Assembly (NCBI GenBank): GCA_022828105.1
Contig: JAJEJC010000007.1
Location: 392,885 to 456,884, forward strand
Direction of reading: 5' to 3'
Length of the DNA: 64,000 bases
DNA from: Dehalococcoidia bacterium
Lineage (GTDB): Bacteria; Chloroflexota; Dehalococcoidia; Bin125
Below, piece after piece: positions 8,464 to 59,949 of this stretch. Position numbers and translations under genes: made by a program. Under the pieces are notes generated by a model that worked only from the letters and a program-made list of their open reading frames with translations, had not been told where the DNA came from and did no database searches. Within the stretch, counting starts at the first letter, position 1. Each line of letters opens with the position of its first letter.

Positions 8464-9702
8464 ATGAGACGTCTTTCCAAATCGCACGTACTGACGTTGG
8501 TCGTCGGCATAATTCTCGGCGCGCTCGCGCTCGGCATCGTGCATGCGGCGACCAGCCTGACCAGCGAGGTTCGCATCGGCGCGCGGCTGCTGGACGACGG
8601 CCGGGTCGAGGTGGGGTTGCAACAGCAGCAGGACAGTTCCTGGGTCAGCCTTGAGGCGCCGGCCAGTCGCTTCCTACCGCCGACTGCCGAGCGCGGCGAG
8701 TGGCACTACAGCACCGGGATCGCGGTCACCGGCACGATTGCGGATGAGCCCGTGGTGATCGTGCGCCGTCCACCAGTGATGTGCGTACTGGGACATGCCC
8801 ATCCCGCCGACGATCGCTTCTGGCAATGGACGCTGGCTGCCTCGCGGGTACATGGCATCCAGTACGGCGTTGACCTGCGGCTCTATGCGGCGGACGACAG
8901 CGATGATCACGCTGCGGACCTCCGAGACTGCATTGCCTCGGAGCCGATCGCCATTGCCACGTCGCTGCCGTACGCCGAGGCTCTCGCTGCACCGCTGGCC
9001 GAGGCACGCGATGCCGGCATTCTGGTCGTCACCTTCAACTCCGGCGCCGACGACGCGGATAGCGTCAACTCGCTGCTGCACATCGGGCTGGATGACCATT
9101 CCGGCGGCGTACAGGCGGGCGCTGAGCTCAACAACGCCGGGGTGACCGGCACGGTGCTCTGCGTCATTCACGAGACCGACAACGTCGGCCTGCGCCAACG
9201 CTGCGAGGGTCTCAAGGCCGGCTATGGCGATGCGGGCGTGGTCGAGGAGATGTTCGTCGACACGCAGGGACCTGCGGACGTCGACGCGGTGCAAGGATTG
9301 CTTGAGGAGCGAGTCTCGGCCGGCGGAATCGGCGGCGTCGTCACACTGAACCACGACACGGGCATGGCGGCGTTGGCTGCCGTGGAGGCGCTCGAGTCCG
9401 ATGTTGCCGTGGCAAGCTTTGGCTTCAGTGACGGCCTGGCGGCTGCAGTCCGTGAAGGCAAGATGCTCTTCCTCGTCTGGGATCACCCGGTGGTCCAAGG
9501 CTACCTGGCAGTCTCGGCCATGGCGTTGGCGTTCAGCCTGGAACTGAGTGATCTCAACTCCGAGGTCTTCCTCAATGGCGCAAAGATTCTGATCGAACCG
9601 ACCCTCGCCGACCAGGATCGCGCCGCCGAACTGCAATCGATGTTCCGCTTTGCCGATCGCCTGAGCGGCCAGACAGAGGAATCGGAAGGCGACGGACCAT
9701 AG
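8464..9702 (+). CDS. Exported periplasmic-binding-fold protein with an N-terminal novel module
   Basis: The frame opens earlier, but ATG 8464 is the likely start: it has GGAAGGA upstream and begins a clear signal sequence (residues 1-28: positive MRRLSK, a hydrophobic run, then an AHA-like cleavage region). The mature 412-residue protein has two parts. Residues 35-88 are a beta-rich module found also in two other exported proteins of this window. Residues from about 100 on look like a sugar-type periplasmic binding domain of the RbsB kind, with features such as GILVVTFNSG and GTVLCVIHETDN. No permease or ATPase gene is next to it, so it may be a free-standing sensor or binding protein. The ligand is unknown. 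Confidence 0.7.
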   Translation: MRRLSKSHVLTLVVGIILGALALGIVHAATSLTSEVRIGARLLDDGRVEVGLQQQQDSSWVSLEAPASRFLPPTAERGEWHYSTGIAVTGTIADEPVVIVRRPPVMCVLGHAHPADDRFWQWTLAASRVHGIQYGVDLRLYAADDSDDHAADLRDCIASEPIAIATSLPYAEALAAPLAEARDAGILVVTFNSGADDADSVNSLLHIGLDDHSGGVQAGAELNNAGVTGTVLCVIHETDNVGLRQRCEGLKAGYGDAGVVEEMFVDTQGPADVDAVQGLLEERVSAGGIGGVVTLNHDTGMAALAAVEALESDVAVASFGFSDGLAAAVREGKMLFLVWDHPVVQGYLAVSAMALAFSLELSDLNSEVFLNGAKILIEPTLADQDRAAELQSMFRFADRLSGQTEESEGDGP

Positions 9703-36095: not shown

Positions 36096-36185
36096 CACGG
36101 CCTCCTCGATACCAGTTTGGCCACCAGACTATCGCCGGATGAGAACACGGCGCATCGTCCGACGGACGGCTATGCTCAAGGCTGG

Positions 36186-38261
36186 GTGACAGGCGCTGGA
36201 ACTGAATTGATCGATATTCGATCGCTGGCCGTTGGTCGTTCCCTCGCAGTGCTTGCCGGTACCGTGATCGCCGTCCTCGTCTTGGCGTTGCTCTCTGCGG
36301 ACGCGGCAGCGGACGAAGGCGCTGGGGGACACGCCGTTGCCGTCAGCGCAGGTGGAGCGCACAACTGCGTCTTGACAGCTTCAGGCGCCGTGCGGTGCTG
36401 GACAGGTTGGATTGACCCGAGGGCGCCGCAGCCTGAGGTGTTGCCTGCAGGCCGCTATCGGGCCGTGAGCGCCGGTAACGGATTCACGTGCGCCATTGAC
36501 GATCTTGATGAACTGGTCTGTGTTGGCGGGGGGCTCAGCAAACAAACGGATGCCCCGCAAGGACGGTTCAAATCGGTCAGCGCCGGAGTGAACCATTCCT
36601 GCGCCGTTCGACTGTCAGGCGCGGTCTCCTGCTGGGGCGAAGACAAGTGGGGTGAAACCAATCCGCCTCCGGGACAATTTCGCTCCGTCAGCAGTGGCTA
36701 CGACCACTCCTGTGCAGTCAAGCACTCAGGCGAGCTTCGTTGTTGGGGAGCAAACCATCGCGGCCAGAGCGAGCCGCCAATCGGCCGCTATCTGTCCGTC
36801 ACCAGCGGAAACTGGCACTCGTGCGCGGTCGGTGAGGCGCATGCGGTCGTCTGCTGGGGTATGAACCACGTCGGTCAGAGCGATGCTCCCGACGGCCGGT
36901 TTCGATCTGTCAGTGCTGGATCGATTCACACCTGCGCCTTGCGCGAGTCAGGTGCAATCATCTGTTGGGGATTGAACGACACAGGGGAAACGAACGCGCC
37001 TGACGGGACGTTTCAGTCGATTGACGCAGGAGCATCTCACAATTGTGCACTGAGGACGTCCGCCGCCGTGGTGTGCTGGGGTAGAGAACGCGACACTCGC
37101 GTCACAACGCCGCCCGACGGCGCCTTTCGCGCACTGAGCGCCAATGCATTTCACGCGTGCGCGGAACGAGAGTCGGGGTACGTCGCTTGTTGGGGTGACA
37201 ACAGCCAGGGCCAACTCGCAATTGCGTTGCCTGGACGGTTTCAGACGGTCGGCACTGGAGTCTTCCATAGCTGCGCCATCGTCGAATCTGGCACGGTGCG
37301 CTGTTGGGGTCGGGACAGGGATGTCGAATCGACTCCTCCTACTGATAGTTTCAAGGACGTCACGGCCGGCCTCGGCTTTAGCTGCGGACTGGCCAGCGAC
37401 GGCGCCGCTATCTGCTGGGGCGACGTGATCTATGGCCAGGGCCGGCCGCCGTCGGATCGGTTCAGCTCTCTCGAAGCCGGTAAGGACCACGTCTGTGGAC
37501 TGACCGAGTCAGGCGCCGTGCGCTGCTGGGGTCTGGACGAGCTGGGTCGTCTCGATGCGCCGGAGGGGCGCTTCCGGTCGCTCAGCGTGGGTGAAATGCG
37601 GTCCTGCGCCGTTCGCGAGTCAGGCGAGATCGTCTGCTGGGGTTGGAGTTGGTTTGAGCGCGGTCGGACCGATCCACCCTCAGGCCGGTTTCGCTCGGTC
37701 GGCGTAGGTTCGAATCACGCCTGTGCAGTTCGTGAGTCTGGCGAACTGTCCTGCTGGGGCGACGATAGCTTCGCGCAAGCAACACCTCCCGCAGGCCGGT
37801 TCCGCGCTGTGGACGTCGGCGCGTTGTATAGCTGTGCCATCCGGGTGACGTCTGAACTCGTCTGCTGGGGAAACACGGATTCCGTTGTGCGACCTCCGGC
37901 GGACCTTGCGGCGGATTCGCTGATCGTCGGCAGAGTCATCATCAGGCGTCTGAGAGACGGATCGGTTGAGTTCGGCTTCCGCTCCTCAGGAGGTGAGCAA
38001 TTCCTACCCACACGCCGTCTGCTCACTCAGCGCGCGCCTGTTGGACGCTGGTTTAACTCCAGCGCCGTTGTGGTCAACGGCAAAGAGCTCGGACGAATCA
38101 GCGCTCGAGTGCTCGCCGATGGCAGGATCGAATTCTCTTTCCTCGCTAGCGATGGGAAACGCATCCTCCCCTGGTGGCGCAGCCTTTCACCTCAATCCGC
38201 TGTAGACGTCTGGCTCTGGAGCAGTGAGATCGGAATCGCACCGCCTGCCGCGCCTGACTAA
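36186..38261 (+). CDS. Exported RCC1-repeat protein with two C-terminal novel modules
   Basis: From the GTG at 36186 this is 691 residues; TTG 36207 is another possible start, and neither has a good ribosome site. A hydrophobic segment with an ADAAADEG end acts as signal peptide or anchor. Fourteen RCC1-type repeats of about 37 residues follow, most with the pattern [RK]SVSAG-x-HSCA-x-ESG-x-CWG, each with two cysteines. Fourteen is enough for two seven-bladed propellers. Residues after the last repeat form two copies of a beta-rich module (37920-38075 and 38082-38237) also seen in two other exported proteins of the window. Role unknown; extracellular binding is plausible. selB follows after only nine bases. 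Confidence 0.82.
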   Translation: MTGAGTELIDIRSLAVGRSLAVLAGTVIAVLVLALLSADAAADEGAGGHAVAVSAGGAHNCVLTASGAVRCWTGWIDPRAPQPEVLPAGRYRAVSAGNGFTCAIDDLDELVCVGGGLSKQTDAPQGRFKSVSAGVNHSCAVRLSGAVSCWGEDKWGETNPPPGQFRSVSSGYDHSCAVKHSGELRCWGANHRGQSEPPIGRYLSVTSGNWHSCAVGEAHAVVCWGMNHVGQSDAPDGRFRSVSAGSIHTCALRESGAIICWGLNDTGETNAPDGTFQSIDAGASHNCALRTSAAVVCWGRERDTRVTTPPDGAFRALSANAFHACAERESGYVACWGDNSQGQLAIALPGRFQTVGTGVFHSCAIVESGTVRCWGRDRDVESTPPTDSFKDVTAGLGFSCGLASDGAAICWGDVIYGQGRPPSDRFSSLEAGKDHVCGLTESGAVRCWGLDELGRLDAPEGRFRSLSVGEMRSCAVRESGEIVCWGWSWFERGRTDPPSGRFRSVGVGSNHACAVRESGELSCWGDDSFAQATPPAGRFRAVDVGALYSCAIRVTSELVCWGNTDSVVRPPADLAADSLIVGRVIIRRLRDGSVEFGFRSSGGEQFLPTRRLLTQRAPVGRWFNSSAVVVNGKELGRISARVLADGRIEFSFLASDGKRILPWWRSLSPQSAVDVWLWSSEIGIAPPAAPD

Positions 38262-38270: not shown

Positions 38271-40139
<1,869 letters not shown>

Positions 40140-56955: not shown

Positions 56956-59949
56956 CTACCGCACCATCACGATCACCTTGACTGGCTCACCTTCTGTGAC
57001 GTTGACTCGCCAGGCCCAGACGTCGGAGTCGGCGAAGCTGTAGATGTCGCGGCGTGGGATCAGGCGCTTGTCCTCGTCGGTCAGGACGCGGACGGTGAAG
57101 TCCTCGAAGTCGTGCTCGCCGGTGTTCCTCAGCTTGAAGTAATGGGTCGAGAACCAGCGCGTCTGCTCCAGCGTCGAGAGTCCGGGGCAGTCGTCGCGCA
57201 CGAAGTCGATGACCAGCAGCAGCTCGACTCCGTCGGGCGCGTCGAGCTCCCACTCCTGCGTCGACTCGGGTGAGAGCGGGCGGCGCGGCTCGATGCAGAT
57301 CGCCTCCGGCGTTTGGTCCTCGCGGTACTCGACGATGAATATCTTGTCGCCGAAGTCACAGGTGTCGGGCCGCGCGCCGTCGCGCTCGTAGACGCGCCAG
57401 ACATCCGGGTTGTCGACGGTCGACGCGTACACGGCATAGCGCCCGTGGTAGCGCTCAGAGGGGTGGACATTGCAGATCCGGCCAGAGAACTGCGGCTGAA
57501 TCGGTCCGTCGTAGAGCGGCTGCGTGAAAGCGGAAGCGGAGCCGTGCGCGGGCGGACCGTCGTTCTGGTGTCGGGGGCGTTCCGCCCGCGACCGCATCGC
57601 CATCCAGGACGCCTCCACCGTCTCCGCCCGCAACAGGTCGTCGCCGCCCAGCGAGATGCCCAGCAGTGACTGGTCGCAGAGGTCGATCAGCGGCGACCCG
57701 TGCCGCCCGTTGCCGGTCGGCTCGACGCGCAGCACCCGTTCGCTCAGATCGGACACGTTGAGCACGGTGACCAGGTAGCGTGCCGCGTCGCCTGCGGGAT
57801 AGGTCAGCAGGTGAACGTTGCGATCGATCAGCTCGTCGCCGGTGGAACCGAAGACGGCCGTCGCGCCGAGCTCTGCCTGCTCCTCGGGATCGAACAACTC
57901 GACCAGGGCCAGGTCGTTGCGCGGATCACTCGCGACGCGCACGACCGGCAGGGTCTGTTCGCCGCGTGAGACCACGCCCCACGGCGCTCCATCGGGGACC
58001 CGCGCAAGGTTGACCAGGAACTGTCGATTGCCAACGTGTACGGCGGTCCCCGTCCCGGCCAGGGAGTTGAACTGCCAGGCATAGAGTTCCTGCGGGTCTC
58101 GATACCGACAGGTCAGAGCAGACGTCGGCGTATGCGCGCTGATCGCCGTTGAGCCCGCAGGCAGACTCACAGACCACGAGATCGGCGCAGTTTCCCGCCA
58201 ACGGCCCGACTCGACGGCGGGGCTGAGCCAACCGCCATCCGAGCCGCAGTGAATCATGCCCTCGGCGAACAGACACACGCGAACTGTATTGGACTCGGAG
58301 TCGATCCGAGCGGCAATCTCAACTGAGACCTCGACGGTTCCAAACTCCTGGAGCGCGTCGGGTTCCCGGTCGACCTCCAGCGGTACGATCCAGCGCTCGA
58401 CGCCGGCGGCGATCCGGACGGCGACCGGTGTGAATGTGGCGTCGGCCGACCAATCCTGCCAGAAGGTGGCGACCGGGGAGTCCGCCGCTGCCGTGATGCC
58501 TGAGTACGACTTTCTCGACCACGCGCCCACCAGCAACGACCCGTCTGCGCCGATCAGCGTCGCGCCGAGATCAGTGCCGGGCGGCTGCGGGATCGCAAAG
58601 TCGACCCGCATCGAGTACTCGCTTACGTTGGGGCACTCGGGTGCCGGGTCCCGCACCGTGATCCGCAGCGAGCCGAACGGCCGACTTGACCCGTGCAGCA
58701 CGCGCGGAGCGCCAGTGTTGGAACAGTCATCCGCCAACGGTGGATCGGCTGCGACTGCGGCGAGCGCCGCCACATAGGTGAATCCGTTGTCGAGGTCGTC
58801 GGGGCCGGACGCTCCGCAGACACCAATCTGCGTCCAACCGGCTCGCTCCAGGTCGGCGCGGACCTCGGACTCATCGGCGACAGCCGAGACGGCGATCCAC
58901 CAATCGGCATCCAGCTCCGAGCAGTCCACATCCTGCGGCGGTTCCGGTCCGTAGTGCCAGATCAGGCGTCCTGCCGCTCGTAGCGCGGGAGGCACGGAGG
59001 ACGGCATTGCCGGCCAGCGCCGCCAGGCATCGCTGATCTGCCGCAGCGAACGCATGAGTGTTCCGCCGGAGTGGGTGTAGGACCAGCTTGAGCCGCCGGC
59101 CCAGGTGACGCCGATCACTTCGCCACAGGCGTCGAACATCGGTCCGCCGCTGTTGCCGCCCCGAACCACCGCCGAGGTCTGGATGTTGTCCTCCCAAACC
59201 TGACTCACCACGCCGCCGCCGGAGATGGTGAGCGCCTCGCCGCCGGGATAGCCGATTAGGTAGACCGATTCACCGACGTCGTCCACGCTCGGGGCGCGCA
59301 ACCTCAGCGCAGGCACCTCCTGCACCAGTCCCGGCGCGTCTACCTCCAGCAGAGCCAGATCAAGGTCGGGGTCCGTTCCGAGCACAGCGGCGCCGATCGT
59401 CCGCCGGCCGTGGATCAGGGAGACAAACGGCGGACGGCCTCTGATGACGTGATAGGCCGTGACGAAGCGGCCGTCGCCGATGTGGAACGCCGTCCCAAAG
59501 GTCCCCGAGGTCTCCACTTTCCAGGTCGCCGCGAGCATCCGCTCAAAGTTGGGCGTACATGAACCAGCGGGCTCTGCCCCAACGGCGACCTCGGACACGT
59601 ATCGGATCGCCTCGTGATCGATCGGCGCGGACCAGGAGACTTCGCTGCTGGTCACCCATCGGTCGCGTGAGGCTTGCCGAAGATTGAGGAACCGCGCCGA
59701 CGGGCAGATGGATTGTCCGTCGTCGGTTCGCAGACAGAGCTCGATCGCGCCGTCTCCGGCAGACCTCGTGACAATCTGCGCGCTGAAGTCGTAGCGGGCT
59801 TCAATCGACTCCGGAGGCTGCGCCAGTCCAACCCGGCCAGCGAGGATTGCGACAATGGCCGCAACCGCCAGGCAGGCGAAGCCTGCGGCGGCAACGAGCG
59901 TCTTCGTACGGTGCGGGCGGCGCTGGCTCGGCGGTCTCATCACCGCCAA
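56956..59949 (-). CDS. Exported two-domain trypsin-like protein, second domain inactive, with two novel modules
   Basis: A 997-residue protein with a signal or anchor segment (residues 17-42). The order is: novel module (about 55-109), trypsin-like domain with His167, Asp197 and Ser267 (GGNSGGP), a middle region, a second novel module (about 539-593), and a second trypsin-like domain (about 626-780) in which the His position is Ala649 and the Ser position is His750, with only Asp679 kept. The repeat of module plus protease implies an internal duplication followed by loss of activity in the second copy. A further beta-rich C-terminal part of over 200 residues is unassigned. It likely works outside the cytoplasm. 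Confidence 0.82.
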   Translation of the reverse strand: MAVMRPPSQRRPHRTKTLVAAAGFACLAVAAIVAILAGRVGLAQPPESIEARYDFSAQIVTRSAGDGAIELCLRTDDGQSICPSARFLNLRQASRDRWVTSSEVSWSAPIDHEAIRYVSEVAVGAEPAGSCTPNFERMLAATWKVETSGTFGTAFHIGDGRFVTAYHVIRGRPPFVSLIHGRRTIGAAVLGTDPDLDLALLEVDAPGLVQEVPALRLRAPSVDDVGESVYLIGYPGGEALTISGGGVVSQVWEDNIQTSAVVRGGNSGGPMFDACGEVIGVTWAGGSSWSYTHSGGTLMRSLRQISDAWRRWPAMPSSVPPALRAAGRLIWHYGPEPPQDVDCSELDADWWIAVSAVADESEVRADLERAGWTQIGVCGASGPDDLDNGFTYVAALAAVAADPPLADDCSNTGAPRVLHGSSRPFGSLRITVRDPAPECPNVSEYSMRVDFAIPQPPGTDLGATLIGADGSLLVGAWSRKSYSGITAAADSPVATFWQDWSADATFTPVAVRIAAGVERWIVPLEVDREPDALQEFGTVEVSVEIAARIDSESNTVRVCLFAEGMIHCGSDGGWLSPAVESGRWRETAPISWSVSLPAGSTAISAHTPTSALTCRYRDPQELYAWQFNSLAGTGTAVHVGNRQFLVNLARVPDGAPWGVVSRGEQTLPVVRVASDPRNDLALVELFDPEEQAELGATAVFGSTGDELIDRNVHLLTYPAGDAARYLVTVLNVSDLSERVLRVEPTGNGRHGSPLIDLCDQSLLGISLGGDDLLRAETVEASWMAMRSRAERPRHQNDGPPAHGSASAFTQPLYDGPIQPQFSGRICNVHPSERYHGRYAVYASTVDNPDVWRVYERDGARPDTCDFGDKIFIVEYREDQTPEAICIEPRRPLSPESTQEWELDAPDGVELLLVIDFVRDDCPGLSTLEQTRWFSTHYFKLRNTGEHDFEDFTVRVLTDEDKRLIPRRDIYSFADSDVWAWRVNVTEGEPVKVIVMVR

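Follow-up and report, generated by a model that had tools for sequence, protein, structure and literature searches.

Profile comparison of their sequences indicates that five segments in three exported proteins of the window (the whole 64,000-nucleotide stretch of DNA analysed here) are copies of one real protein domain of approximately 55 residues, hereafter called the module. A sequence-only reading of this DNA had proposed that a segment of about 50 residues is common to a binding-fold protein, an RCC1 protein and a trypsin-like protein. The five segments were confirmed in the reading frames proposed, with profile boundaries lying a few bases from those first given.

Module copies and host proteins in the window

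Each segment was scored against an HMM built from copies in the same genome outside the window (Z = 3000). The first host protein (bp 8464 to 9699, forward strand) consists of a signal peptide, a module and a Peripla_BP_4 domain that is rhizopine/sugar-binding-like (PF13407, E = 8e-23). Its module (bp 8563 to 8733, forward strand, E = 5e-18) lies right behind the signal peptide and is of a long form with W-x-x in a loop. This protein has no lipobox, and its match to NCBIfam NF052284 is below the cut-off. A further module-bearing binding protein, a frame of 432 amino acids at contig C9:392136-393431, straddles the start of the window (overlapping bp 1 to 547), and its module falls just outside. 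The second host frame (bp 36117 to 38258, forward strand) has a hydrophobic signal region, RCC1 repeats (PF13540, 14 stretches, E = 2e-83) and a C-terminal tandem pair of short-form modules, the first at bp 37926 to 38078 (forward strand, E = 3e-15) and the second at bp 38088 to 38243 (forward strand, E = 8e-13).

The third host protein (bp 56959 to 59949, reverse strand) has a signal peptide, a module, a Trypsin_2 domain, a spacer, a second module and a degenerate Trypsin_2 half (PF13365, two stretches, E = 3e-30), and orthologs were found in most genomes of the genus. It is an internal duplication in which the first half keeps GNSGGP and the second has GNGRHGSP, and from its sequence the second half looks catalytically degenerate. 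One module (bp 59629 to 59784, reverse strand, E = 3e-11) is placed between the signal peptide and the active trypsin-like domain; the other, a divergent copy (bp 58171 to 58329, reverse strand), precedes the degenerate half. The Cys pair ascribed to both protease copies is real, and orthologs of the protease keep it in each of the two modules. The orthologs of the divergent copy score down to E = 0.005, and when 13 of them were compared with the family profile, hhalign gave a probability of 94.5% (E = 8e-8), so that the proposed common segment holds by direct search for four of the five copies and by profile-profile comparison for the fifth. When all six frames of the window were scanned with the same HMM, no ORF beyond the three proteins passed the inclusion threshold, and the best score among reversed window ORFs was only E = 0.09.

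Copy number, distribution and inheritance

The genome that contains the window has a size of 2.74 Mb in ten contigs. A protein search with one of the RCC1 copies revealed many places in it with module-like translations, and a profile of 25 copies, with the window copies among the seeds, gave 51 matches at E <= 1, of which 47 reached E <= 1e-4. By profile search the genome carries about 46 module copies, and the five that had been counted in three proteins, although all present, are only part of this set. A second profile, built from 56 copies of other genomes and run on reading frames of this genome already flagged by earlier module searches, picked up 38 copies (E <= 1e-3) spread over 25 frames; of these frames, several belong to a single split gene, and one is a doubtful fragment of 52 residues. 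It is extremely improbable that the resemblance arose by chance or by convergent composition among beta-rich exported proteins: the divergent protease copy is not significant alone (E = 0.07), but 20 shuffles yielded no copy at E <= 1e-3 with the profile trained on other genomes, the window copies score as low as 5e-18, and for four of the five copies this explanation is already refuted.

Two near-identical giant genes of over 2200 residues, with a HExxH metalloprotease-like start, FN3 domains and several module pairs, run off their contigs, with the continuations located at other contig ends; the ends involved are C2:169482, C4:494844, C9:529941 and C10:172495. The assembly of this genome breaks inside a module copy.

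The distribution of the module was followed by profile in Chloroflexota genomes. Of 20 genomes sampled from the family 18 have it, a single genome giving as many as 53 matches; it was also found in 31 of 294 genomes of the class, representing 10 of 184 genera and five families. A phylum-wide draw of 350 genomes, which again included the genome studied here and one of the same genus, added one further genome with matches; per-genome counts in the class- and phylum-wide searches are to be read as "at least". This genome (G328) is the sole one sampled outside the class to carry the module, in two proteins (L100 and L109) with C-terminal doublets. The two named relatives of the first host protein come from MAGs of Chloroflexi, IRC2_bin_8 and SB0664_bin_15.

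For hosts that had a close ortholog in the sample (binding proteins, superoxide dismutase, DsbA-like), the copy in that ortholog was the module's nearest relative, which indicates that module copies are inherited with their hosts and have not recently moved. The suggestion that the module is mobile therefore stands over evolutionary time only. Phage and plasmid records gave no convincing module match, a search of viral contigs with six exact peptide patterns taken from a single doublet confirmed no module, and fold matches to the module in BFVD were not significant; carriage by phages, plasmids or viruses was thus set aside for the collections searched.

Sequence anatomy and predicted fold

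The module is 52 to 59 residues long, with the consensus [VL]R[IV]xARxLxDGRVEFxLQ...(W)GERxLPxxRFLPAdaxxGRWLxSSPVxV, in which R, [IV], A, R, D-G-R, E, L-Q, P, R, W and S are the strong columns. There are two forms: a W-G-E-R loop marks the long one, and the short one, without this loop, tends toward doublets. In some copies, including those of the protease, a thioredoxin-like protein and the giant protein, Cys occurs at the same two positions, which fits a disulfide. No enzyme motif was seen in the module.

AlphaFold2 predicted a compact beta fold for a single window copy (pLDDT 91, pTM 0.73) and was likewise confident for the RCC1 doublet (pLDDT 96.6, pTM 0.88), in line with the beta-rich character first ascribed to the segments. 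In the doublet model the last strand of copy one adjoins the first strand of copy two, both strands being long. Foldseek searches of the PDB with the single and tandem models gave no match at E <= 0.001, a result that very small folds can escape; the matches listed had E >= 0.17 and a query TM-score of at most 0.46 (criterion > 0.5). The top PDB fold matches were lipocalin-like and fluorescent-protein barrels, which resemble the module in their antiparallel beta strands.

When 36 module members were scanned, none scored above the gathering cut-off of any Pfam-A model (best 0.088, a single member) or above the curated cut-off of any NCBIfam model (best 0.034, a single member), and whole host proteins matched Pfam solely outside the module. 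That no known family bears this signature was upheld: neither Pfam nor NCBIfam has a model covering it. The module was not found described in the literature searched, and the passages of a paper on sponge Chloroflexi (PMC6306507) reached by term search mention no comparable domain of secreted or exported proteins. From the AlphaFold2 models this previously unmodelled domain is confidently predicted to be beta-rich, and we read it as a small all-beta unit that folds independently.

Partner domains, envelope context and possible function

The profile search of this genome and its relatives gave many matches in signal-peptide proteins, and the view that the module recurs on unrelated exported proteins was borne out by the diversity of its Pfam partners. 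In this genome these are Peripla_BP_4, RCC1, Trypsin_2, Cu/Zn superoxide dismutase, AhpC/TSA thioredoxin-like, Cache and PPC, as well as FN3 in a giant protein; a DsbA-like module protein was read from sequence, and several module proteins have no Pfam match at all. Partners in other genomes include Peripla_BP_6, Trypsin_2, Big_5 and Big_9/cadherin-like domains. Most copies come after a signal peptide, within about 7 to 35 residues of its hydrophobic core, and the remainder form doublets near the C-terminus or are internal in long proteins. Exported carriers and unrelated partners, two of the features expected of a surface-attachment module, were both found.

The DsbA-like protein has two N-terminal modules and, in two genomes, an in-frame TGA at its first active-site Cys (U-x-x-C). 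The contexts are GDPF[TGA]PECR in this genome (L068:2350-2352, contig C5) and GDPY[TGA]PNCR in genome G005 (L102). SelA is encoded in this genome, SelB lies in the window (bp 38271 to 40139) adjoining the RCC1 protein gene, and in only one of the two genomes does the RNA that follows the TGA fold unusually well. The protein is a candidate selenoprotein; selenoproteins of the DsbA-like type have been described (PMC1794560).

A hydrophobic signal-like core was present in all 22 module proteins scored and a lipobox in none, whereas the script found a lipobox in 14 of the 15 SBP_bac_5/8 proteins that lack the module in this genome (in all 15 on reading; p = 2.5e-9 from the script count), a contrast that is partly one of protein classes, since monoderm substrate-binding proteins are usually lipoproteins. 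Six of the eight Peripla_BP_4 matches in the genome carry the module, and a relaxed lipobox was seen in just one of the two module-free proteins. The genes for these two (L128, contig C8:34700-36420) are adjacent and have permease-like and ABC ATPase-like frames beside them, whereas the neighbours of the module-bearing Peripla_BP_4 gene of the window are not transporter-like. The genome also encodes penicillin-binding (peptidoglycan) transpeptidases, which makes a cell wall probable.

The lipobox contrast, the transpeptidases and the Peripla_BP_4 split together favour attachment to the envelope by a non-lipid route. Our leading reading, held tentatively, is that the module is a lineage-specific envelope-attachment module of this kind, whose binding and ligand we infer. 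Many exported proteins of one Chloroflexota lineage have it at the mature N-terminus or, as a tandem, at the C-terminus, where it would bind a polymer of the wall or surface, or some surface component common to these proteins. It would thereby keep enzymes and binding proteins that are otherwise soluble and carry no lipid in the cell envelope and prevent their loss to the medium. What the analysis shows, namely homology, copy number, diverse partners, the signal-peptide context, the missing lipobox and the predicted fold, is consistent with this. Against it stand the difference in protein class behind the lipobox contrast, the relaxed lipobox in just one of the two module-free Peripla_BP_4 proteins, and the internal modules of the long surface proteins L073 and L064, which would also suit a structural or ligand-binding role. 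The attachment role first suggested for the segments is in this way favoured circumstantially, by the lipobox contrast. A broader and more doubtful proposition is that an undescribed all-beta domain, possibly a new fold, serves as the general non-lipid anchor of one lineage's exported proteome, single or as a doublet, with perhaps as many as two dozen or so proteins of a genome using it.

An adhesin-like domain that binds carbohydrate or matrix, and targets exported proteins to an external polysaccharide or a host matrix, is an unlikely alternative in view of its partners: Cu/Zn superoxide dismutase, thioredoxin-like and DsbA-like proteins serve the envelope chemistry of the cell itself and would gain little from an external ligand, and no carbohydrate-binding family matched the module. 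Such a role would nonetheless suit the conserved polar and aromatic residues (R, E, W, R) and tandem doublets, which are common in binding modules, the protease, Cache, PPC and FN3 partners, and the nearest named relatives, MAGs whose names suggest sponge samples. We consider it improbable that the module is a ligand-free structural element, such as a stabilising cap, a spacer, or an aid to export or folding beside the signal peptide. Its place immediately behind many signal peptides, its compact fold with no obvious catalytic motif and the recurrent Cys pairs, which suggest a stabilising disulfide, would agree with this, but C-terminal and internal tandem pairs lie far from any signal peptide and the conserved polar residues may exceed the needs of packing.

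With dozens of copies per genome, a domain that is absent from Pfam and NCBIfam and has no recognisable PDB fold marks much of what an uncultured lineage secretes or displays on its surface. The module profile is an immediate handle on exported proteins, many of them without annotation, and the identity of the ligand would reveal how these bacteria keep proteins at the surface.

Among known systems, a strand region of GH16 beta-1,3-glucanases shows a weak local likeness (GRVE...P...W..S...[IV]; E = 0.035 against PDB sequences, not significant), and a relationship was rejected because the module has only about 55 residues, its consensus lacks the catalytic ExDxxE and no GH16 chain was among the fold matches listed. 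SLH, LysM, PASTA and choline-binding repeats are, like the module, small non-catalytic units that occur singly or in tandem at the termini of many unrelated exported proteins. They have no sequence or Pfam match to the module, whose own binding role is putative, and LysM and SLH contain helices whereas the module is predicted to be all-beta. The lipobox of lipoproteins may be a functional analogue: both stand at the mature N-terminus of exported proteins, and the module is found on proteins that lack a lipobox, but the lipobox provides a lipidated Cys and the module a folded domain.
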